In this document: one piece after another, positions 48,494-60,594 of the stretch
Layout: each line of letters starts with the position of its first letter
How positions within the stretch are numbered: position 1 is the stretch's first letter
Assembly: GCF_001705515.1 (NCBI RefSeq)
Contig: NZ_MDJS01000004.1
Coordinates: forward strand, 310,001-374,000
DNA length: 64,000 bases
Source of the DNA: Mucilaginibacter sp. PPCGB 2223
Lineage (GTDB): Bacteria; Bacteroidota; Bacteroidia; Sphingobacteriales; Sphingobacteriaceae
Reading direction: 5' to 3'
The notes under the pieces: generated by a model
Databases searched by the model: none
Told to the model about the DNA's origin: nothing
Seen by the model: the letters and a program-made list of their open reading frames with translations, nothing else
Made by a program: the position numbers and the translations under genes

Positions 48494-49186
48494 TTAATTC
48501 ACCAACAGTTTATACCCCTTGCCGTGCACGTTGATGATCTCGACTTTCGAATCGTCCTTGAGGTATTTGCGTATCTTGCTTAAAAACACATCCATACTGC
48601 GGCCGTTAAAATAGTTATCATCGTGCCAGATGTTGAGCAGGGCTTCTTCGCGGGTGAGCACTTCGTTTTGCTTCAGGCAAAGCAAGCGCAGCAATTCGGC
48701 TTCCTTGGTCGACAGCTTTTGTTTCTGGTCGCCGTCGAAGATCATCTGGGTGGTATAATCAAACTCGTATTTGCCGATCTTAAAATGTGTTTGTTTCTCG
48801 GCATTATCCTTCCCGCTATCGTTTACGCGTTTTAGCAGGGCGTTGATGCGCAATAAGAGTTCCTCAATACGGAAAGGCTTGGTAATATAGTCATCGCCGC
48901 CAAGGTTGAAGGCCTGGGTTTTATCCTCAATCATACTTTTGGCCGTAGCAAAAATGATAGGCACGGTTGGGTTGATCTTCCTGATCTCCTTACCCAGGGT
49001 AAAACCGTCCTTTTTTGGCATCATCACATCCAGTATCAGCAGATCGAACTGTTGTTTGGTGAAAGCTTTAAGGCCCTCATCGCCGTCTTTACAAAGTACA
49101 ACTTCAAACTTGCCCTTCAGCTGCAGGTAGTCCTGCAAAAGCAGGCCCAGGTTCGGATCATCTTCAACGAGTAATATTTTCATCAT
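48494..49186 (-). CDS. OmpR-family response regulator
   Basis: 230 residues. Receiver domain with acidic pocket EDD (about 8-10) and phospho-Asp in LLILDVMMPKKDG (about D53), lysine in DYITKPF; C-terminal winged helix (SMDVFLSKIRKYLKDD, NVHGKGYKLLVN). Partner of the kinase 9 bp upstream. May bind the TTTAACA boxes at 51113-51141. Confidence 0.95.
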   Translation of the reverse strand: MMKILLVEDDPNLGLLLQDYLQLKGKFEVVLCKDGDEGLKAFTKQQFDLLILDVMMPKKDGFTLGKEIRKINPTVPIIFATAKSMIEDKTQAFNLGGDDYITKPFRIEELLLRINALLKRVNDSGKDNAEKQTHFKIGKYEFDYTTQMIFDGDQKQKLSTKEAELLRLLCLKQNEVLTREEALLNIWHDDNYFNGRSMDVFLSKIRKYLKDDSKVEIINVHGKGYKLLVN

Positions 49187-49195
49187 CTATTATTT

Positions 49196-51070
49196 TCAGG
49201 GGTCGACCAGATCGAACTTTAATTCGAACTCCGAGCCTTTTTCTTTTTCAGATCGTACACCAATTGTGCCATTCAGCCTTTTTACGATGGTGTTCACATA
49301 ACTTAGCCCCAGTCCAAAGCCTTTAACATCGTGCAGGTTACCGGTAGGTATACGATAAAACTGCTCAAATATTTTACTTTGCTGATCGCTGCTCATGCCA
49401 ATGCCTTTGTCGGCCACTTTTATTACCGCCTGGTTATGGCGGTTAACGGTCGTAGTAATCGTGATCTCAGGCGCTTCGCGGCTGTATTTGATCGCATTAT
49501 CAATCAGGTTGTAAATCACGTTCGAAAAATGCAGTTCATCGGCTTTAATAAACAACTCTTCATCGCTCAGGTTAAGATCGAGCTTAGCGCTATGCTTCTG
49601 CAGTTTTAAAGCCATACTATCCAAAACGGCGGCTATCAGTTCGTTAATCTCTATCTTTTTGATATCGAGCTTAAAGTCGTTTTTTTCGATACGGGCGATG
49701 TTCAATACCCGTTCGATATGGCTGCCCAAACGTACATTTTCTTCGTAAATAATATTGGCAAGTTTAGATACCCGGTTTTTATCTTCGGCTATCTCGGCAT
49801 CGCGCAGGGCCTCGCTGGCTATCATAATGGTCGACACCGGGGTTTTAAACTCGTGGGTCATGTTATTGATGAAATCGGTTTTCATCTCCGATATCTTTTT
49901 CTGCCGCAATATCGAGTAAATAATAAAACCGAAGCAAAAGATAAAGAAAAGCAACAAGCCGCCTGTAGTGGCCATGGCACCGCCCATCTGGCTTAATATC
50001 AACGAATTTTTTTGCGGGAAATACACCTTCAGCTCGCCGGGATCATTGATCACATCCTTACCGAATATGGAAGTATGATACGTATTGGCGGGGATAAAGG
50101 TCGGTTTCTGGCCGTCGATATCAAGCGCTTTCGAAAAGATCACCGAATCGTTGTGCGCCTCGGTTACTTCGTAGCTAAAAGGTAAAGATATACCATGGTC
50201 GTTCAGCTCGGACCGCAGCAAGGTATCTATCCATAATTGGTTAATGCGATCTTTCAAAGGTTCATCTTTACGCGAATATTCCAGCGCCAGTTTTTCAATC
50301 ACATTCTGCTGGCTCTTTTGCATTTTGGGCATATCAACGGCACTTTCCTGCTGTAATAATCTGCGGAGCTGTTTAATATGCTGCTCGTTTTCTTTTCGGC
50401 GCTGCTCCTGTACCCATAACGGATTCAGCCTGGGTACCGATACCACCTGGGGGCCGAACTGAGGATCGATATAAGTATAGCGCGTGGTATCGAGATATTT
50501 GATCTCTTTGGCCTTTTGCAGCATTTTGGCGCGTTTGGCCATCATACTGTAATTACTTTGCGGAGTAATAGTAAGGTATTGCTCCACCTGGCCATACTCA
50601 TTTTCTTCGATATGGCTTTGTATACTGATGGCTTTGCTTACATCTTCAACTTCCTGCTCCAGTTTGCTTCGTGCCAGCATATGGCTAACGCTATCGCGTA
50701 GTTTGGCTATACGTGCGCTATGTGCAGGATCGGTTTTAGGCGTAGGCATGTGCACCAAACCATCATCTGTCAATTCGTTAGAACCGATTTTATTTATTGT
50801 GACGGCTCTGAGATAGACATCCTTTTTCCTATGCACAGAACCGGCGGTATCCTTTTTGCTTGTAAGCCTGGCTTTCTGAATCAGAAAGTTATTGGCATCC
50901 TGTTTGGTTACAGTGGTCACTACATCGTTAAGCGCAGCCTTAACGTCGCGGTCGAAAAGATCGGATTGTAAACGGTACGATTGCCGCAGGAAATAAAACT
51001 GCATAGCTATCACCCCAAGCAGGGCCAAGGCCATCAACCCGGTTATGATAATTATGCTTTTACGTTTCAT
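49196..51070 (-). CDS. Membrane sensor histidine kinase
   Basis: 624 residues. Two membrane helices (IIIITGLMALALLGVIAMQF near the start; TTGGLLLFFIFCFGFIIYSI about 365-385) enclose a periplasmic sensor of about 330 residues rich in charged helices. H-box MTHEFKTPVSTI, N-box YNLIDNAIKYS, G-boxes VADKGIGMS and GFGLGLSYV. No HAMP or PAS seen. Resembles RprX-type kinases of Bacteroidota. Signal unknown. Confidence 0.94.
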   Translation of the reverse strand: MKRKSIIIITGLMALALLGVIAMQFYFLRQSYRLQSDLFDRDVKAALNDVVTTVTKQDANNFLIQKARLTSKKDTAGSVHRKKDVYLRAVTINKIGSNELTDDGLVHMPTPKTDPAHSARIAKLRDSVSHMLARSKLEQEVEDVSKAISIQSHIEENEYGQVEQYLTITPQSNYSMMAKRAKMLQKAKEIKYLDTTRYTYIDPQFGPQVVSVPRLNPLWVQEQRRKENEQHIKQLRRLLQQESAVDMPKMQKSQQNVIEKLALEYSRKDEPLKDRINQLWIDTLLRSELNDHGISLPFSYEVTEAHNDSVIFSKALDIDGQKPTFIPANTYHTSIFGKDVINDPGELKVYFPQKNSLILSQMGGAMATTGGLLLFFIFCFGFIIYSILRQKKISEMKTDFINNMTHEFKTPVSTIMIASEALRDAEIAEDKNRVSKLANIIYEENVRLGSHIERVLNIARIEKNDFKLDIKKIEINELIAAVLDSMALKLQKHSAKLDLNLSDEELFIKADELHFSNVIYNLIDNAIKYSREAPEITITTTVNRHNQAVIKVADKGIGMSSDQQSKIFEQFYRIPTGNLHDVKGFGLGLSYVNTIVKRLNGTIGVRSEKEKGSEFELKFDLVDP

Positions 51071-51112
51071 ACAGCTACAAAAATATTGAACAATAGGCTA
51101 ATACAAATTTGC

Positions 51113-51141
51113 TTTAACATTATTTAACATATCGTTTAACA
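51113..51141 (+). promoter_or_regulatory. Three TTTAACA direct repeats
   Basis: TTTAACA at 51113, 51123 and 51135, about one helix turn apart, in the gap between the kinase gene and the divergent secreted-protein gene. This is the layout of OmpR/PhoB-type binding sites. Confidence 0.5.
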
Positions 51142-51205
51142 AAAACCAATGAGTAAATCTATTAACTTAGTTTTTAGTTTTCAACTCCATCAAACCCAAT
51201 ATGTC

Positions 51206-52081
51206 ATGAAAAAAAACAATATTCCGCCAATTTTAGAACTAACATTCGCCGCTGGCGTAATGATAATTCTGTCGTTGCCATTATTCGTAAAAGCACAGGA
51301 TCATAAAGAATTCAGTGTCAGCATCAATAACAAAGACACTATTGTAAACGGTAAAAACATTAAAGACCTTTCGGCAGCAGACAGAACAGATGCCCTTAAG
51401 AAACTAAACGAACTTAACGACCGCATCAGCTTTACCACAAAAGATAGCGGCGATAATATGATTACACTAAAACAAAAAGACGGCACCAGTAAGGTTTATG
51501 TATATGGTAATGGCATAACCGTTGGCGATATCCCCCCAATGCCACCTATGACAGCATACAACCTTTCTATTGACACAGCCGACAGGGGAATGATCATAGC
51601 CGATAATGTTATAAAAAGCGACTTTAAAACCCTCGCCGGATCAAAGTTACGCACTTCGGTACTGGCCAACGGGCGCGGCTTAAGCTCTGTTTTTCTATCC
51701 GGCGGCCGCAAAAATTCGCAATCGTTCAGCTACTCAAATACTGATAACGATGGCATCAATACACATATCAACTTTAATGTAAGCGATGCAAGCGCCGAGA
51801 AAATTAAAAAGATAAGCGGAGCAGAAAAAGCCGATCTGAATATCCAGGATCTGAGCATTGTGCCATCGTTTTCGACAGGTAAAACCACACTGATCTTTAA
51901 CCTGCCTGCCAAAGGTGCCGAAGTACAATTTAAAGATAGCGAAGGTAATGTATTATGGACAGAAAAGATAACCGGAAACGAGTTTAGCAAAAGCTTTGCC
52001 TTACCCAAAAATGGCGTTTACTATCTGCAGGTTAAACAAGCCGGAAAAGTAGCCCTGCGCAGGATAGCCAAAGAAGAGTAA
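51206..52081 (+). CDS. Secreted protein with T9SS-sorting-like C-terminus
   Basis: 291 residues from the ATG at 51206 (an ATG at 51149 would add 19 residues before the signal peptide). Hydrophobic segment LELTFAAGVMIILSLPLFVK then AQ. Middle region unrecognised (FSVSINNKDTIVNGKNIKDL). The last 70 residues, with FNLPAKGAEVQFKDSEGNV, NGVYYLQVKQAGKVALRRI, look like a type A T9SS sorting domain. Divergent from the two-component genes, so possibly their target. Confidence 0.8.
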   Translation: MKKNNIPPILELTFAAGVMIILSLPLFVKAQDHKEFSVSINNKDTIVNGKNIKDLSAADRTDALKKLNELNDRISFTTKDSGDNMITLKQKDGTSKVYVYGNGITVGDIPPMPPMTAYNLSIDTADRGMIIADNVIKSDFKTLAGSKLRTSVLANGRGLSSVFLSGGRKNSQSFSYSNTDNDGINTHINFNVSDASAEKIKKISGAEKADLNIQDLSIVPSFSTGKTTLIFNLPAKGAEVQFKDSEGNVLWTEKITGNEFSKSFALPKNGVYYLQVKQAGKVALRRIAKEE

Positions 52082-52104
52082 GTATATCCAATCTCCTTGA
52101 TTAT

Positions 52105-52138
52105 AAAAAAGGCTCGCGGAAAATCGTGAGCCTTTTTT
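52105..52138. terminator. Bidirectional terminator
   Basis: GGCTCGCG-GAAAAT-CGTGAGCC (one G.T pair, 52111-52132), six A before and six T after, between convergent genes. Confidence 0.85.
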
Positions 52139-52142
52139 GTTT

Positions 52143-53513
52143 TTATTTCAGGTTCATCAAATAGTTGTGCATATTATCACTCAACTTTTCAACGTCCCAT
52201 TCATCGTTCAGCTTTTTGGTATAGAAGGTTTTAACATCTTCCCATTTATAATACGGGAAGTTATTTGTTTTTAACCCTTCTATAGCCACTTCTTTCTCGT
52301 TCAACAAAAACTTTATCAGATAGTCGCGCTGGTTATCGGGGGTCTGGCCTTTATATAAGATAAATTGAATGTTGGCGCTCAACGGTATAACTTCTTCTGA
52401 CTTCCAAATCTTCTCGAATTTGAAGATATCTGCGCTTTCTTTACTCGCTCCTTTTATACCTAACAAGGCCGCAAATGAGGTAAGCGTTTCGGCATTGGTT
52501 ATCCTGATATCGGCAGCAACGTTAGGGCTTATCAGGTATGCATCGGTAGTATTGATAAAATTAACCAGCAGGGGTACAGTGGCACGTACCTGGATGCCCG
52601 AATGATCGCCACCGGGGCCGGCCTTGTAATATTCTTCGGCCGAGTTAAGGGTATTGAACAGGGCGAGTTCGGAGCAGGTAAAAAACGAGCGGATATCCAG
52701 CTGCTCGAGCGTAAAACCCGCATTAATAATTTCGCGGTGGATAGAGTTGATCACCGTACTCGCTTTATACAAATCGGTAATAAAGCGGTTTTGATCAGCT
52801 TCCTCTATCTTATCAAAAAAACTTTGTTCAAAAAACCTGGTTAAAAACCTGATGTTAAAGTTTTCGGGCTTTTTCTGATCGCGGATGTTATCCACGTTGT
52901 CTTTCCAATCGCCTGTTTTCATCATTTCGACCAATGATGGTGCCGTGGCAAAAGGGTTCAGGTTATCATCATCGTTATAACTTGGCTTATCGCAGTTCGG
53001 CTCGTCAAGGGTATGCCTTAAGCCACCTAATAAAGCTTCAGCGCTTTGCTTCATCCGGTCCTCATTGATTGCCGCGACTTCAACACATTTTTTTTGTGCA
53101 AATACGTTTCCGTAAAGCGCCAGCATGCGGGTACCTATACCTTTCTCTTCGATAGCACCCGAAAGGGAGATCCTGTCGAGCTTATCTTTTTCGATCGTTT
53201 GCAAAGTAAGCAGCATTTTACGCAGCTTGCGGCCATCAACTTTTAATGCATGTGCGCTATCGGCTTTTTGCAGTAACGCAAATACAAATGTTGTTGAAAT
53301 GTCTTTTACCAGGTGTTCTGCACCATTGCGACCGATAAAATTGATAAATACCGGTTTGTAATCGGGGGGTGTCGAAGTGACAGTAAAGTTTTGAGGTAAA
53401 TACTGTGTATGGCTGCCCCAGTATTCGAGTGAGCAGTCGGTTTCCTGGGCCATGGTAACATTGGCGAAGATCAGTAAAGAAAACAAGGAAAGATAAAGCT
53501 GTTTCTTATTCAT
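52143..53513 (-). CDS. Histidine-phosphatase-clan protein (MINPP-like), probable pseudoenzyme
   Basis: 456 residues, signal peptide ending TMAQ (about 22). The pattern follows multiple inositol-polyphosphate phosphatases: FINFIGRNGAEHL where RHG is expected, LSGAIEEKGIGTRM, NEDRMKQSAEALLGGL, and IRITNAETLTSFAALLG where HAE is expected. The nucleophile His is Asn63 (codon AAT, 53325-53327) and the proton-donor-motif His is Asn340 (AAT, 52494-52496). The reading frame is intact and long. Catalysis by the usual route looks impossible, so a binding role is likely. Next to an intact histidine phosphatase and a TonB receptor. Confidence 0.75.
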   Translation of the reverse strand: MNKKQLYLSLFSLLIFANVTMAQETDCSLEYWGSHTQYLPQNFTVTSTPPDYKPVFINFIGRNGAEHLVKDISTTFVFALLQKADSAHALKVDGRKLRKMLLTLQTIEKDKLDRISLSGAIEEKGIGTRMLALYGNVFAQKKCVEVAAINEDRMKQSAEALLGGLRHTLDEPNCDKPSYNDDDNLNPFATAPSLVEMMKTGDWKDNVDNIRDQKKPENFNIRFLTRFFEQSFFDKIEEADQNRFITDLYKASTVINSIHREIINAGFTLEQLDIRSFFTCSELALFNTLNSAEEYYKAGPGGDHSGIQVRATVPLLVNFINTTDAYLISPNVAADIRITNAETLTSFAALLGIKGASKESADIFKFEKIWKSEEVIPLSANIQFILYKGQTPDNQRDYLIKFLLNEKEVAIEGLKTNNFPYYKWEDVKTFYTKKLNDEWDVEKLSDNMHNYLMNLK

Positions 53514-53675
53514 TTAATGTGGTGTGGTTGTTGACTGATAACGGTTTTAATATACATATTGGTATATACTTTATTACCCGTGTAAAGGTTTGCTCACCAA
53601 AAATAAATAATTAGTCTTTATCTCCTTATAAGCTGCGATTAAATAAGTGTTATCCCGATTACCATCTTTTGCTGC

Positions 53676-54227
53676 TTATATCGGGCAATTAGCCGATGGA
53701 TGCAGCCCTTCCTTATCTTTTATCAGTTGCGGCAGGCCATTTTTAAAAGTAACAATCCAGATACTATCGTAATCATCATCGGGCCAGTTAAGTGTTTCGG
53801 CAATTCCCAATGCTTTCACAATACCTGGTATGGCTTTATGCTCCCAGGTAATGATAATGGTACCCTTGTGTGCTTTCAGGTCAGCAGCTATCTGGTCAAA
53901 GTCTTTTTCCTTGTGTGTTGTCGCTATCGCCAAGTTATATTGTATAGCCAGGGGCGCAATGGTTTGAAACATGCGCGAATGTTTGGTGGTATCGCCCAGG
54001 CCCAGTTGCGGAACCATCAGGTAATCGGGTACACCAAATTTTTTGACCAGTACAGCCGGTAGCTGCAGCGAGCGGTTTAAACCCTGGCAGGTTAAATTGC
54101 TGCCTTTCAGCGGTTTTTCGGCATGGCGGATAAAAACAAGTTTTAAATTTTCGGATTGGGCAAAAGTTGTATGTGCTGTTATAAAACAAACAACTAAGCA
54201 AAGTACATACAAGAGCGCTTTTTTCAT
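53676..54227 (-). CDS. Secreted histidine phosphatase (branch 1)
   Basis: 183 residues from the ATG at 54225-54227 (signal MKKALLYVLCLVVCFITAH ... FAQ). Phosphatase motif LVFIRHAEKP with both R and the nucleophile H, LTCQGLNRSLQLP, and the second His in ITWEHKAIPGIVKAL. Periplasmic phosphomonoesterase, substrate unknown. An earlier ATG (54275) would put 16 residues before the signal. Confidence 0.9.
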   Translation of the reverse strand: MKKALLYVLCLVVCFITAHTTFAQSENLKLVFIRHAEKPLKGSNLTCQGLNRSLQLPAVLVKKFGVPDYLMVPQLGLGDTTKHSRMFQTIAPLAIQYNLAIATTHKEKDFDQIAADLKAHKGTIIITWEHKAIPGIVKALGIAETLNWPDDDYDSIWIVTFKNGLPQLIKDKEGLHPSANCPI

Positions 54228-54320
54228 TTTTATAGGATTAAAGATACATCTTTCGGAAGCATATATAATCATCAATACTGGATTGATTTGGGTTTATTGG
54301 GATCGCCTGTACAGCAAACT

Positions 54321-54352
54321 AAAAAATGCACCGCCTTAAAAGCGATGCATTT
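54321..54352 (-). terminator. Terminator of the beta-helix lipoprotein gene
   Basis: Minus strand AAATGCA-T-CGC ... GCG-G-TGCATTT, with six T at the end of the second arm, 27 bp past the stop. Confidence 0.75.
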
Positions 54353-54378
54353 GAAAACATTAGTATTAAGATTGGTAA

Positions 54379-55809
54379 TTAGTGCTGGTTACCTATGCCA
54401 CTTAACTGGTAACAACCCAGGTCGGCGCCCGGAGGCGTTGCATCCGACAAACCGTAGATAGGATCTTTAGGCACAACGATCAGCGGCTGGAAATCAGTTT
54501 TGCCTTTGCCAATCAGCGGCGAAGAAGCTTTCAGCCTGAAGTTAAATGTACCTACCGCACTGTATGCCGACATGGAAATGCCTGCAGGCACCGGCAACGT
54601 GAAGTTTAAGAACTGCGGGTTGTTTTTTCCTACCACATCGGTACCGTCGTATATCTGGCCTAAAACATAACCCGAAGGCAGGTATTTTGATGTTGATGTG
54701 ATCGACGGTATATCGGTAGTTTGCGGCTGAGTGATATAACCTACGGGATAAAACTGGTTGGTTACCGCAACCGAATCGCCATACTGAAAGTTATTGCCAT
54801 AAAACATATTGGCCACATCCGCAACCGGGTTGCCCACCACACGGTAACCAAATTTGCAGTTAACAGCTACGTTGTTGTAGTACATACCTTTGGCGCCTTC
54901 TTCGTAATTGATACAGCCGCCGCGGCCACTTTGTGTTTGGCGGTAACCACCCGAAATAAAGGTGTTGTTGTACATCACGATATTGGTTTGCGGCGCGCCG
55001 GTTGCCTGGCCCTTGTTCGAAGCTTTTTGACCATTGGTGGCCGTACCGATAAACAGGTTATAAGCCATAGTGCCTACAGTACCACCTTTAACATTGATAC
55101 AATCGCCGCCTACGGCGCCATTTTTTTCGAAAGTGTTACGGAAGAAAGCCACCTTACCTGCCGAGATACGGATAGGATCATCGACACCGCCATATAACCA
55201 CGAATCTTCCATAATATAGCTACCGTTATAGTTGGCAAACAAAATGCTGTACTGATTACCCGCACCCGAACCGGCAATTTTTGAGGTAGCGGCACCTTCG
55301 GTACCGCCGGCAAATTCAACGTGTGTCCAGCGCAACACCATCAGGTTACAGGTCGGGCCGCCGATAATGCCTTTCCATTTACCTGAGTAAGCAGGATCGG
55401 CCGACGGCGAAACCGAGCCGGGGGCATCGCTCTTGGTAACAGTTGTTGCAGGGCCGATGTAATTCGGAAAATCTTTCGAACCGTTACTTACCAGGGTACC
55501 TAAAGCTATCAAACTTGTATTAGCGCCCATTTTAAGGGTAACACCAGGCTGCATCAACAAGGTGTCTGTTGCGTTGATCACCAGGTCGCAGCCATCTTCA
55601 ACAGTATAGGTTTTGCCCGAAAGCATGGTACCCTTTACCGAAACCACCGTGCTGCCCGAACCACTGCACGACAGTGGTGCTTTATCGCTAACCGGGCTTG
55701 CGGCAGGCGGCGTATAAGTATAAACATCCGTATGCTCGGTGCTCCATTTTTTACAGCCTGTAACCGCTGCTATCGCTAAGGCAATAATGCTGAAATATAT
55801 CTTTTTCAT
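54379..55809 (-). CDS. Right-handed beta-helix lipoprotein
   Basis: 476 residues. Lipobox AVTGC (C19) followed by KKW. Many short turns typical of a parallel beta-helix (YTVEDGCDLVINATDTLLMQ, VTLKMGANTSLIALGTLVSN, MYNNTFISGGYRQT, MYYNNVAVNC). 22 bp after the TonB receptor gene, so one operon; it may be the surface partner of the receptor, in place of a SusD. Ligand unknown. Confidence 0.85.
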   Translation of the reverse strand: MKKIYFSIIALAIAAVTGCKKWSTEHTDVYTYTPPAASPVSDKAPLSCSGSGSTVVSVKGTMLSGKTYTVEDGCDLVINATDTLLMQPGVTLKMGANTSLIALGTLVSNGSKDFPNYIGPATTVTKSDAPGSVSPSADPAYSGKWKGIIGGPTCNLMVLRWTHVEFAGGTEGAATSKIAGSGAGNQYSILFANYNGSYIMEDSWLYGGVDDPIRISAGKVAFFRNTFEKNGAVGGDCINVKGGTVGTMAYNLFIGTATNGQKASNKGQATGAPQTNIVMYNNTFISGGYRQTQSGRGGCINYEEGAKGMYYNNVAVNCKFGYRVVGNPVADVANMFYGNNFQYGDSVAVTNQFYPVGYITQPQTTDIPSITSTSKYLPSGYVLGQIYDGTDVVGKNNPQFLNFTLPVPAGISMSAYSAVGTFNFRLKASSPLIGKGKTDFQPLIVVPKDPIYGLSDATPPGADLGCYQLSGIGNQH

Positions 55810-55831
55810 GTGTTTTTGATTTGATGTTTTT

Positions 55832-58732
55832 TTAGAATTTATACCTTAGACCGCCCAGGAAAGATGTTTTATAATAATCGGTTTGCACCAGCGTTTGCGC
55901 AGCAATATCCTGCTTGCCGATAAACTCGAGCAGTTGTGTACTCAGCTGGGCGTTAGGATATTTAAGGTATAATTTGGCTGCAGCATTGGTGATGTTGTTA
56001 ACCTTGCCAAAGAATGATAATTTCTTACCGATCATCTTCTCGAACGAGAAATCTAACTGGCTGTACGCATGCTGGTAAAAATCGAGGTTGTAGTATGGCG
56101 ATACCTGCGCCAAACGCTCACCTGTGTACACAAAGGCCAGTTGCATATCCAAACCTAATTTACCGCTCTTAAACAGTACCGAAGCATTGCCTACGTTATC
56201 AGCCTGACCTTGTAACGGACGGGTTTGGCTTACATAAGTTTGCTGCAAGCCTTTCACCGGATCGCTGAAATAAAGCAGCTTATCGGTAGTGATGCTCGAG
56301 TGGGTGTAGGTGTAGTTTACCGAGAAACCGATCACGCCAAAAAATTTGGTAGCCTGTGCCTCAAAACCGTAGTTGGTTGCATCGCCGTCGTCGTTCTGCG
56401 GTTTGATCACCTGGTTACTCGGGCCGCCATCGCGCACCACGAAGTACTCGATCGGGTTGTGGATCTTTTTCAGGAAAGCGCCAAGCAACAACTGATCGGC
56501 ACCGCCCGGGAACAATTCATATCGTAAATCGAAGTTATCGGCAGTGATGTGGTGCAGGTATGGATTACCTTCTTCATCGTAGTATTCGCCCGACACTTTG
56601 TAAGGTACAATCTCGCCATAACCCGGGCGGCTTAACGATGCAAAGTAGGATGCGCGGATACTTTGTGCGCCACTGATCTCATACTTTAAATGCAGGCTTG
56701 GCAGCACATCTGTATAAGCCGAAGTACCGGCCCGCTGTGAAACGGTAACAGGCGATTGTGTTGTGTATTTTTGTAAGGTATTTTCAACCCTTACGCCACC
56801 TAACACCTGTAGTTTGGCAACAGGGTTAAATTTCAATTGCAGGTATTCAGCATTATCATCTTCTTTAACGGTGTAGTTGTCCTGCAGATCGGGGTTATTG
56901 GCGCCCACGCCATCCGAAGCCAGGTTGAACACAAATGGTATCGAATTGAAATTATTGGTATATACTGTCGATTTGTTGCCGCCGATCAGCGAGTAAGTGA
57001 TATAATCGGCATCACGGTCTTTATGGCGTAATAAACCGCCGAGCGATATCTCTACATCGTGATTCAGGATTTTTGGAGCGAAGATAAAGTTGGCGTAGCC
57101 GGTCACATCCTGGTCCTTATTGTTTTCCCAGTGGTGGCTCAGCTTGGTATTGTTATCCAACTCCGATACAATAGCACCCGAGCTATTCAGTGTTTGGTTG
57201 GCATCGTAAGCAAAATCGGTACGATCGGGCTGGTGCCTGTTGGCATACGAGTATACCGCGCTCCAGTTAAATTTGATCTTGTCGGCCAACTGGTGATCGC
57301 CCTGCAGCGTGCTGTTATAGATATTTTGTTGTGTAAGCGTACTGCGGTTGCTGATGGTTACCTGCTTGTTATACAGGGTTGAGTTTAATCCTAAACCCAA
57401 AGTATCGGCAGTTTGCCTTGCCTGGTACTCGTTGGTGTGGATGTACAGGTTGTATAACGAAATCTTGTTGTTCTTGTTAAAACTATAATCGATTTTATTA
57501 TGGATACCTAAACGCTGGGTTTGGGTCGAGTAGCTCCGGGTATAGGCATCAGAAAATTGCGGAACATTGGATGCGGCGGCTGTGGCCGTTGGCTGTGCGT
57601 TGGGCGTTAACTGGGTTGAGTTCGAACCGCGGTAAACATTTTGATAGCTGGCAGATACGATCACACCTAATTTACGATCCAAAAACCTGTCGCCGATGGT
57701 TAAACCTGCGGTTGAGCTCAACGGGTTATTCAGGCTCTGATCGCTGGTGAGGGCTTTGTTGTTAAAATCGGCATAAGTGGCTGCATAGCTGTTGCCGTGA
57801 ACCATGGCGGGCGACTGCGTATTGGGCGAACCCTGGAAAGCGGTAAACAACCTGCCTTTCGAAAACAGGCTTGAAAAACCGGACGAGGCATTGGCGCTTA
57901 CCACAAAGTGATCGGGAGCCGATTTCATCACCAGGTTCATGGTACCGCCGATGGCATCGCCTTCCATACTTGGCGTAAGAGCTTTAATTACCTCTAAGTG
58001 CTCCAGCATCTCCGAAGGGAAAACATCCATCGGCACAAAGCGGAACTTGTCGTCGGGGCTTGGTATTTTAATACCGTTAACCAGCGTATTGTTATACCGT
58101 TGGTCCATCCCCCGGATGATGGCGTAACGGCCCTCGCCGTTTGATGAACGCTGGATGGTTACACCGCTTACGCGCTGCAAGGCATTACCCACGGTAACAT
58201 CGGGCAATAACTGGATGGTGTTAGCAGAAAGTATATTTTCGACCATCAAGGCATTTTTTTCGAGCGAACGAACGGCCCTGTCGCTTTCCTTGCCGGCTTG
58301 CTCGGTAATGGTCACTTCGTTCAGGCCGGTAGAGTTCTCAACCAAGGCAATGTTGAACACTTCAGTTTTACCGGTAACCGCTTCAACAGCGTACTCCTTG
58401 CTGGCTTTGTAGCCGATAAATTTCACGGTAAGTTTATAGGTACCGGCAGGCAGATTTTTAAAAGTGTACGAGCCGTTCAGGTTAACCGGCGCGTTAACTG
58501 TTGTTTTACCGTCGATATGCACGGTGGCGCCTGTTAACGGTTCGCCGGTACCGGCATCGGTTACCTTGCCCTTAATAATGCTTTGGGCGCCGGCAACTAA
58601 ACCGAGGCAAACAAAAGCGAGCAAAAAAGCCCCGGTTTTAATTAGGTTTAATGTAGATGATTCCATCAATAGCGGTTGTTTTAAATGTGATCTGATGTTG
58701 TTTGAACTGTTTGCTTTTTTAAAAACGGCCAT
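55832..58732 (-). CDS. TonB-dependent outer-membrane receptor
   Basis: About 966 residues from the ATG at 58730-58732; an ATG at 58666 (MESSTLNLIKTGAFLLAF...) gives a cleaner signal peptide and is also possible. After the signal comes a CarboxypepD_reg-like domain (IIKGKVTDAGTGEPLTGATV), the plug (QLLPDVTVGNALQRVSGVTI, NGIKIPSPDDKFRF, EGDAIGGTMNLVMKSAP), then a 22-strand barrel ending LGGLRYKF. The EGDAIGGT form is that of TIGR01782-like receptors, not of SusC. Paired with the beta-helix lipoprotein; two phosphatase-clan genes lie just downstream. Substrate unknown. Confidence 0.94.
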   Translation of the reverse strand: MAVFKKANSSNNIRSHLKQPLLMESSTLNLIKTGAFLLAFVCLGLVAGAQSIIKGKVTDAGTGEPLTGATVHIDGKTTVNAPVNLNGSYTFKNLPAGTYKLTVKFIGYKASKEYAVEAVTGKTEVFNIALVENSTGLNEVTITEQAGKESDRAVRSLEKNALMVENILSANTIQLLPDVTVGNALQRVSGVTIQRSSNGEGRYAIIRGMDQRYNNTLVNGIKIPSPDDKFRFVPMDVFPSEMLEHLEVIKALTPSMEGDAIGGTMNLVMKSAPDHFVVSANASSGFSSLFSKGRLFTAFQGSPNTQSPAMVHGNSYAATYADFNNKALTSDQSLNNPLSSTAGLTIGDRFLDRKLGVIVSASYQNVYRGSNSTQLTPNAQPTATAAASNVPQFSDAYTRSYSTQTQRLGIHNKIDYSFNKNNKISLYNLYIHTNEYQARQTADTLGLGLNSTLYNKQVTISNRSTLTQQNIYNSTLQGDHQLADKIKFNWSAVYSYANRHQPDRTDFAYDANQTLNSSGAIVSELDNNTKLSHHWENNKDQDVTGYANFIFAPKILNHDVEISLGGLLRHKDRDADYITYSLIGGNKSTVYTNNFNSIPFVFNLASDGVGANNPDLQDNYTVKEDDNAEYLQLKFNPVAKLQVLGGVRVENTLQKYTTQSPVTVSQRAGTSAYTDVLPSLHLKYEISGAQSIRASYFASLSRPGYGEIVPYKVSGEYYDEEGNPYLHHITADNFDLRYELFPGGADQLLLGAFLKKIHNPIEYFVVRDGGPSNQVIKPQNDDGDATNYGFEAQATKFFGVIGFSVNYTYTHSSITTDKLLYFSDPVKGLQQTYVSQTRPLQGQADNVGNASVLFKSGKLGLDMQLAFVYTGERLAQVSPYYNLDFYQHAYSQLDFSFEKMIGKKLSFFGKVNNITNAAAKLYLKYPNAQLSTQLLEFIGKQDIAAQTLVQTDYYKTSFLGGLRYKF

Positions 58733-58738
58733 ACTCAC

Positions 58739-59242
58739 TGAACGGCCTGCCGATAATTATTGTGCTCACGGTTTATTATTGTTGTGTGCCGGCCGGGTTC
58801 GGTTCGACAACAGCAGAGAGAAGAGTTACACCCTGATAAATAGCACAATAACACAGACAGAGATCAGGCTAATGCCGTTTAACTGCGCGCAAAGTAGACG
58901 GCGAAATTTGGAGGAATTCTGAATTTTTTGGCCTCGAAAAATCAGATAACGCAATGGTAATACTGAGTTAATATACAGCCCGGTTCAGCGCCATATAGCA
59001 ACCAATAATTAACATTATAGCCACATTTTAGTAACAACACAATAAAGATGAGAGACAGAGATTGCCAAAAGTTCGGCGCCGATTAAACAGATATGGATGC
59101 ATATCATCGTTAAGGCCAAACATGCAGTTTGTTTACTTTTGCATATAGAAGGCATGCACGCTTAGCCAATAATAATACCGGAAGGTTTTAGTGGATAGTC
59201 CGGGCCCACATCTTTTTTCGTGAGATAAGCCGGATCCTGAAA
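58739..59242. other. Long intergenic region upstream of the TonB receptor
   Basis: 504 bp between the receptor gene and clpS. I see no gene, tRNA or riboswitch. TACTTTTG at 59134-59141 (plus strand) is a stray -7 match with no gene behind it. Probably the receptor promoter and leader, but no -33/-7 pair stands out. Confidence 0.4.
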
Positions 59243-59524
59243 TTAATCGACAGAAACCGTGAGACCTTCCTGTTGTAATATCTTACGGTAAATCTCCATT
59301 TCGGTAAAAGAGCCTTCCAATACCGCGCATTTACCTTCGTTGTGTACCTTCCAGGCAATTTTTTCGGCTTGCGATTCGGTATAATCGAGGTATTTCATCA
59401 TGCAATGGATCACATGATCAAAGGTATTGTAATCGTCGTTCCATAAGATTAACCGGTGCATTTCTTTCAGTCCGGCTAAAACTTCTTCGAGCGTGAGGGT
59501 CTGTTCTTCTACTTCGGTAGGCAT
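59243..59524 (-). CDS. clpS: ATP-dependent Clp protease adaptor ClpS
   Basis: 93 residues. Core LILWNDDYNTFDHVIHCM (about 31-48) with the N-degron pocket, YTESQAEKIAWKVHNEGKC, and the final EGLTVSVD strand. Delivers N-end-rule substrates to ClpAP. Stand-alone gene, ATG start. Confidence 0.95.
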   Translation of the reverse strand: MPTEVEEQTLTLEEVLAGLKEMHRLILWNDDYNTFDHVIHCMMKYLDYTESQAEKIAWKVHNEGKCAVLEGSFTEMEIYRKILQQEGLTVSVD

Positions 59525-59640
59525 GGTGCGAATTTACGCAATGATGCGCAGATGTGCGAATATGCAGATGTGCAAATTATATTATTTGACGGCCAAACAA
59601 TTACCGCATGGTTAAGCACTTTCGCTTAACTATTGCTTTC

Positions 59641-59680
59641 GTATAAGTGTCCACATATTCGTTAGTGTGGACGCTTGGAC
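59641..59680. repeat. Short dispersed hairpin
   Basis: AGTGTCCACA (59646-59655) and TGTGGACGCT (59665-59674) form a hairpin with one wobble. TTCGTTAGTGTGGACGCTTG resembles 47937-47956. Followed by CACTCACCACTC words at 59697-59725. Confidence 0.45.
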
Positions 59681-59727
59681 AGGCGAAGAAGTAAACCACT
59701 CACCACTCTCTGTTCACCACTCACTGA

Positions 59728-60594
59728 TCACTTTGCCGATCTCGTCATCTTTTCAATAGCGTCCCACATTTCGCCGGGGATCATTTCCAGGGCGCTAAAC
59801 TGGCCTGCACCCTGCAGCCATTCGCCGCCGTCGATGGTGATCACTTCGCCATTGATATATCCCGAAAAATCGGAAACCAAAAATGCCGCCAGGTTGGCCA
59901 GTTCCTGGTGCTCGCCTACGCGTTTAAGGGGTACACGGTTCTTAAAATCAAACTTTGCCGCCATATCGCCGGGCAGTAAACGCTCCCAGGCTCCTTTAGT
60001 CGGGAACGGCCCCGGGGCGATAGCGTTGGTACGGATGCCGTGCCTGCCCCACTCTACCGCCAGCGAACGCGTCATGGCCAAAACACCGCCCTTGGCACAG
60101 GCCGAAGGCACTACATAGGCCGATCCTGTAAAGGCATATGTGGTCACAATATTCAGGATAGTGCCTTTTATTTGCTGATCGATCCAGTATTTGCCTAAAG
60201 CCAGTGAGCAATTTACCGAGCCTTTTAATACAATATCAATAATGGTTGAAAACGCGTTGGCCGAAAGGCGCTCGGTTGGCGATATAAAATTACCGGCGGC
60301 GTTGTTCAGCAAAGCATCAACCTGCCCAAACTTTTCAAGGGATTGTTTCAGCATGGCTTCAACTTCATCGTAGTTGCGAACATCGCATTGTACCGCCAGC
60401 ACTTTGCCGCCGGTAGCAGTCTCCATTTCGGATGCTGTTTTTTGCAATACATCCAGTTTGCGGCTCGTGATTACCAGGTTGGCCCCCAACTGTAAAAAGT
60501 AAGTACCCATGGCTTTACCCAGGCCGGTACCGCCGCCCGTGATTATAATGGTTCTGCCTTTCAGGGCATCATCGCGTAACATTCCTTGTGTCAT
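59728..60594 (-). CDS. SDR oxidoreductase, 2,4-dienoyl-CoA reductase-like
   Basis: 288 residues. NADPH-binding TGGGTGLGKAMG (about 20-31) and LLNNAAGNFISPTERLS, a mark of 2,4-dienoyl-CoA reductases. The usual Y-x3-K is replaced by SACAKGG: the lysine is kept and the tyrosine lost, as in DECR1/DECR2. It would reduce 2,4-dienoyl-CoA so that polyunsaturated fatty acids can enter beta-oxidation. The isomerase gene lies just upstream, and both have repeat-borne ribosome binding sites. ATG at 60592-60594. Confidence 0.88.
   Translation of the reverse strand: MTQGMLRDDALKGRTIIITGGGTGLGKAMGTYFLQLGANLVITSRKLDVLQKTASEMETATGGKVLAVQCDVRNYDEVEAMLKQSLEKFGQVDALLNNAAGNFISPTERLSANAFSTIIDIVLKGSVNCSLALGKYWIDQQIKGTILNIVTTYAFTGSAYVVPSACAKGGVLAMTRSLAVEWGRHGIRTNAIAPGPFPTKGAWERLLPGDMAAKFDFKNRVPLKRVGEHQELANLAAFLVSDFSGYINGEVITIDGGEWLQGAGQFSALEMIPGEMWDAIEKMTRSAK

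Follow-up and report, generated by a model that had tools for sequence, protein, structure and literature searches.

Evidence for a selectively maintained MINPP pseudoenzyme beside a TonB receptor and lipoprotein in Mucilaginibacter

The window analysed here, a stretch of 64,000 nucleotides from Mucilaginibacter sp. PPCGB 2223, contains a gene for a secreted protein that is descended from MINPP phytases and has lost three of their catalytic residues. Comparison with two orthologues supports the view that this protein is a selectively maintained pseudoenzyme. Coordinates of the features are given in Table 1.

Table 1. Features of the locus and altered codons of the pseudoenzyme gene (window coordinates)
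Feature	Coordinates	Strand	Basis or remark
Histidine kinase (49196-51070) and response regulator (48494-49186)	48494..51070	-	Syntenic anchor
Convergent neighbour with T9SS type A sorting domain	51149..52081	+	Syntenic anchor in M. rivuli and the MAG
MINPP-derived pseudoenzyme (supported), 456 aa, predicted signal peptide	52143..53513	-	ORF, Pfam, phmmer, AlphaFold, PDB matches
N340, codon AAT, His position of HAE motif	52494..52496	-	HAE in 28/28 intact relatives; T in both orthologues
N186, equivalent of BtMINPP R183 (InsS6 2-sulfate contact)	52956..52958	-	Q in both orthologues
E66, codon GAA, second Arg of RHGxR (Bl R48 equivalent)	53316..53318	-	R in 28/28 intact relatives; S in both orthologues
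N63, codon AAT, nucleophile-His position of RHGxR	53325..53327	-	H in 28/28 intact relatives
Secreted small histidine-phosphatase-like protein, RHAEKP motif (branch-1/SixA-like by motif only)	53676..54275	-	Likely true ATG start near 54227
Putative surface lipoprotein, lipobox Cys19, beta-rich, probably beta-helix	54379..55809	-	Single copy in genome; pLDDT 65, fold weak
TonB-dependent receptor with CarboxypepD-reg N-domain	55832..58738	-	TIGR01782-like, 294 bits against a cut-off of 310
C-terminal remnant of another MINPP gene, about 50 codons, in-frame stop	59076..59228	-	Profile search
SDR-family oxidoreductase	59728..60594	-	Syntenic anchor, other side

Results

The protein belongs to the MINPP family and is predicted to keep its fold

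The reading frame is intact, with an ATG start and no internal stop, and the predicted signal peptide, placed by eye, ends at about NVTMAQ/ETDC, so that the product should be secreted. This agrees with the sequence-only reading from which we set out, which had described a MINPP-like protein with a signal peptide and an otherwise unbroken frame of 456 codons. The family assignment is likewise borne out. In phmmer the protein matches BtMINPP (E ~1e-23), with its altered positions aligned to RHGAR and HAE, and it scores 30.8 bits against Pfam His_Phos_2 (cut-off 23.6). A Pfam search of the organism's own genome from raw DNA gave no match, though the protein itself passes the cut-off; we read this as a sensitivity limit of that type of search. 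The AlphaFold (AF2) model has a pLDDT of 90.1 and a pTM of 0.88. Its best 32 PDB structure matches are all MINPPs, BtMINPP being the first, and Foldseek against MINPP structures gives E ~1e-26 and TM ~0.87 (normalised by target). The predicted structure is thus a branch-2 histidine phosphatase fold with a MINPP-like cap, and the MINPP fold appears to be kept.

With the bacterial MINPP phytases of known structure (BtMINPP, 4FDT/4FDU, PMC3969271; BlMINPP, 6RXE, PMC7762957) the window protein shares the fold, secretion, the equivalents of R62 and R153, and the C-terminal motifs LLNE and PL-AN. Unlike them, it is without the nucleophilic His, the second Arg of RHGxR, the His of HAE and the R183 equivalent; it also lacks the Lys that its intact relatives carry at the A31 position. 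Judged by the family-defining motifs it would not be a functional MINPP, yet it clearly descends from one.

Catalytic and pocket residues have been replaced

In the window protein RHGAR has become RNGAE and HAE has become NAE, which amounts to three lost catalytic residues (H63N, R66E and H340N); the Glu of the HAE motif, the proton donor E342, is retained. The sequence-only reading had reported the two His-to-Asn changes, each with the codon AAT, and both are real, but it missed R66E and the further changes in the pocket. Every one of the 28 aligned intact-type members of the genus, all from other species, has RHGAR except one, which has RHAAR. These 28 sequences and the intact M. rivuli paralogue are invariant at R62, H63, R66, T69, K70, R153, T154, H340, A341, E342, T343 and P346.

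In solved complexes, three arginines (Bl R44, R48 and R142) hold the scissile phosphate, and the sites of other phosphates are lined or contacted by Bt R183, by Bl S51 and by the residue at the Bt A31 position, which is Lys in many MINPPs (PMC3969271, PMC7762957). The window protein keeps the third phosphate-binding Arg (R153, invariant), has Asn in place of the MINPP-conserved Arg (N186), and is altered at InsP6-contact positions (K35H, T69V, R186N); the positions of K298 and T154 have likewise changed. Positions were equated with Bt A31 and R183 by means of the phmmer alignment.

In the alignment, no other histidine of the window protein falls in the catalytic places, a finding that the sequence-only reading had named as one that would count against it had it turned out otherwise. 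The nearest, H67, is conserved in 30/30 aligned sequences as part of the RHGARHLTK segment. We therefore rejected the idea that other histidines take over.

Two orthologues have broken active sites that differ in detail

Our genus survey comprised 150 genomes, 32 of which encode a relative. Only two orthologues with broken active sites were found among the 150, at 64-66% identity: one in M. rivuli HMF5004 (NZ_JAHXPQ010000001; RNGAS/TSG) and one in a Mucilaginibacter MAG (NZ_CAITNG010000116; RHGAS/TSE, hence with H63 and E342 retained). A 401-genome sample of the family, ranked by score, held no further such orthologue and nothing near the scores of these three. Of two scans of a genome-contig collection, the former was empty and the latter returned only the two known orthologues; a viral scan gave nothing, and a class-wide search yielded too few distant MINPPs for independent losses to be sought.

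In the trio (window, MAG and M. rivuli, in that order), position 63 is N, H and N, position 66 is E, S and S, and the HAE motif reads NAE, TSE and TSG. The trio thus carries N/N, H/T and N/T at the two histidine positions, and neither orthologue shares the pair of asparagines for which a search had been proposed. The idea of a unique N/N pair was rejected. Nor do the data support joint loss of the two histidines as the event that defines the lineage, Arg66 having been lost too. Since the orthologues carry different residues at both sites, what is conserved is the loss of the active site; the N/N pair is no signature but one of the end states that a stepwise loss has reached. Given that the intact-type columns are invariant and that the loss runs through the clade, two other species included, the changes at the catalytic places reflect more than chance.

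The trio forms one clade (support 100) on a long stem of 0.63 substitutions per site, and the intact M. rivuli paralogue is its sister (support 100). Within it, the MAG and M. rivuli orthologues are sisters (support 98). Because the MAG protein keeps H63, H63N must have arisen twice or reverted once.

The cationic pocket is largely gone

All three species have lost R66 (Bl R48), R186 (Bt R183), K35 (Bt A31 position), T69 (Bl S51), K298 and H340, and all three have a bulky Met fixed at position 154 (T154M). K70 is kept, and of the arginines that hold the scissile phosphate only R62 (Bl R44) and R153 (Bl R142) remain. Over 14 motif, pocket and conserved columns the net charge is +2, +3 and +3 in the trio versus +7. 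The mature proteins of the trio have net charges of -9, -10 and -4, versus +4 to +16 in the intact relatives (n = 29, all basic); as the trio is one lineage, this reversal counts as one evolutionary event, not three. The cationic pocket thus appears largely dismantled, which argues against retained InsP6 binding. R62 and R153 might still allow one phosphate or sulfate to bind.

The gene is under purifying selection with a shifted pattern of constraint

Pairwise dS being saturated, we used a codon maximum-likelihood model. Within the trio omega (dN/dS) is 0.066, compared with 0.027-0.123 in five sets of active MINPPs; it rests on three sequences with synonymous sites near saturation, which makes the value rough but not its direction. 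The log likelihood is -4001.6, versus -4277.8 with omega fixed at 1 (276 log units worse; 2*delta lnL ~552). Purifying selection has thus acted in three species after the loss of catalytic residues in a protein homologous to an enzyme family, and the earlier suggestion of a pseudoenzyme with its fold preserved under selection is upheld. A pseudogene is rejected on omega and the intact frames.

There are 78 residues that are invariant in the trio and rare (10% or less) in active MINPPs. No fewer than 26 of them lie within the 76 positions of the cap domain at aa 191-266, and others cluster around the C-terminal NDEWDVEKLSDNMH. Columns that are free in the trio though conserved in active MINPPs include both catalytic motifs. 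Together, the new conserved residues and the freed columns suggest, from three sequences, that constraint has moved away from the catalytic centre. The clade-specific patches at aa 191-266 and in the C-terminal tail (aa 436-450) are candidates for an interaction surface.

The gene lies in a variable site of receptor/lipoprotein cassettes

The pseudoenzyme gene comes last in a series that opens with the TonB receptor and continues with the lipoprotein and then the small secreted RHAEKP histidine phosphatase. The small RHAEKP protein has no sequence match in Pfam, NCBIfam or PDB, and has relatives in 78/150 genus genomes. The lipoprotein belongs to no Pfam or NCBIfam family. Its structure matches are weak, mostly beta-helix and all with E > 0.01, from a model too poor for a fold call. 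Both within the genus and beyond it in other genera of the same family, it is conserved beside the TonB receptors of phosphatase cassettes. By eye, the translation of a short ORF at ~59243-59525 (minus strand) resembles a ClpS adaptor.

Between the same flanks (SDR, T9SS protein, histidine kinase and response regulator), M. rivuli has tandem cassettes: receptor, lipoprotein and intact MINPP, then receptor, lipoprotein and dead MINPP. The MAG has an additional receptor/lipoprotein pair, followed by receptor, lipoprotein and dead MINPP. In most other species examined an intact MINPP is accompanied by a receptor/lipoprotein pair. Intact cassette MINPPs such as the first copy of M. rivuli, where it is the tandem neighbour, share family and cassette layout with the dead clade, but differ from it in having all catalytic residues and a basic net charge. 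The SDR-to-histidine-kinase interval as a whole (48494-60594 in the window; L031, L044, L129, L130) varies among species, being empty or holding one or two receptor/lipoprotein cassettes with differing phosphatases. Two close relatives have, respectively, an empty locus and a receptor/lipoprotein pair only. No convincing promoter common to all three upstream regions was found.

The nearest relatives of the window receptor and lipoprotein (73-77%) belong to a cassette of receptor, lipoprotein and RHAEKP phosphatase in a different genome of the genus (G017), and that cassette lies next to one with an intact MINPP. The receptors and lipoproteins encoded next to the two orthologous pseudoenzymes are more distant (~48-52% identity) and are not orthologues of those in the window, so no single fixed pair of partners goes with the pseudoenzyme. 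Receptors and lipoproteins linked to dead MINPPs fall outside the clade linked to intact ones. M. rivuli has an acidic lipoprotein (-7) next to its basic intact MINPP and a basic lipoprotein (+7) next to its acidic dead MINPP (L031, 3952-5358 and 9772-11181); a charge complementarity between lipoproteins and adjoining MINPPs is possible, if only suggestive.

No other MINPP was found in this genome by protein search, and a profile search recovered a second, broken piece. It lies upstream of the TonB receptor, with the SDR gene on its other side, at the place that the first, intact cassette takes up in M. rivuli. The similarity of this remnant reaches E values down to 4e-8 in the 1 kb tested, at ~30-50% identity, and before its decay it may have been of the intact or the dead type. 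MINPP copies do decay here, and the remnant serves as an internal control for the intact pseudoenzyme.

Discussion

A TonB receptor, a surface lipoprotein and a phosphatase gene are co-located here. In F. johnsoniae, phosphate depletion induces receptor/lipoprotein pairs of this general kind, and one induced receptor adjoins a phytase (PMC8115612). The phosphate-starvation lipoprotein ElpS of Caulobacter, which raises extracellular phosphatase activity, is encoded beside the TonB receptor Cc0171 (PMC2996285). As in the window, the F. johnsoniae phosphate utilisation systems (FI/FII, beta-helix-like) and ElpS/Cc0171 place a TonB receptor beside a surface lipoprotein, and it is by gene layout that we liken them; unlike in the window, no MINPP or pseudo-MINPP is described there. 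By this analogy the locus probably serves organic-phosphorus uptake.

We regard the following explanation as the probable one, with moderate confidence as a whole: the protein is a secreted, MINPP-derived pseudoenzyme of tandem-duplication origin that acts as a non-catalytic accessory of a TonB-receptor/lipoprotein uptake system. A cassette of TonB receptor, surface lipoprotein and MINPP would have been duplicated in tandem, a state still seen in M. rivuli. The second MINPP would then have turned acidic, with its catalysis and the greater part of its cationic pocket gone. It may now be an accessory that binds a partner, or a different and less anionic ligand, either of which we consider the most likely role, and would serve the adjoining uptake system for organic phosphorus. 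Against this explanation stand the want of one fixed receptor/lipoprotein pair across the trio, the H63 and E342 of the MAG orthologue, and the small number of sequences, three in all, with synonymous sites near saturation.

Other explanations bear on what the protein does with its pocket. The sequence-only reading had proposed a pseudoenzyme that binds phosphate esters, perhaps inositol phosphates; such a protein would capture phytate or another inositol phosphate without cleaving it. R62, R153 (two of the three scissile-phosphate arginines in BlMINPP, PMC7762957) and K70 are kept in the trio and the locus resembles one for organic-phosphorus uptake, but the loss of K35, R66, R186, T69 and K298, the fixed T154M and the turn of the whole protein from basic (+4 to +16) to acidic (-4 to -10) weaken this proposal to the point where we think it unlikely. 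A phosphatase of reduced or altered specificity, working through H63 or another residue in some members, is less likely still: the nucleophile is absent from the window and M. rivuli proteins, and R66 and H340 are gone from all three. Its best case is the MAG orthologue, whose H63 and E342 make residual activity there conceivable. To about the same low degree we credit a neofunctionalised enzyme, in which the old pocket runs a different chemistry without a phospho-histidine intermediate; strong purifying selection and the E342 kept in the window and MAG proteins would suit it, but the variation within the trio at position 63, position 66 and the HAE motif is unexpected for a new common active site.

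Early gene decay, with catalysis lost by drift and the frame still unbroken, would fit a labile locus that is empty in one close relative, reduced to receptor and lipoprotein in another, and in the window contains the decayed tail of a MINPP. The low omega across a deep split, the intact frames in three species and the new clade-specific conserved patches already contradict it for the clade as a whole; it could hold only for a very recent relaxation in the window strain, and we give it very little weight.

The window lineage has counterparts among pseudophosphatases such as PTPRU (PMC7320164), which likewise keep their fold, lose catalysis and are maintained, though the fold is a different one. 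In the mostly open-access literature searched, we came across no description of a MINPP-family pseudoenzyme. A more specific course of events, which we put forward tentatively and at less than even odds, is that after tandem cassette duplication a MINPP phytase became an acidic, catalytically inactive component of a complex for nutrient uptake at the cell surface, its polyanion cleft being exchanged for a protein-protein (or cation or neutral-ligand) interface. The stages on hand comprise intact and dead copies in one genome, a partly dead copy, a fully dead one and a decayed remnant, and their coexistence makes the transition from enzyme to accessory directly testable. The locus also draws attention to cassettes, probably for organic-phosphorus uptake, that form an uncharacterised class in Bacteroidota.
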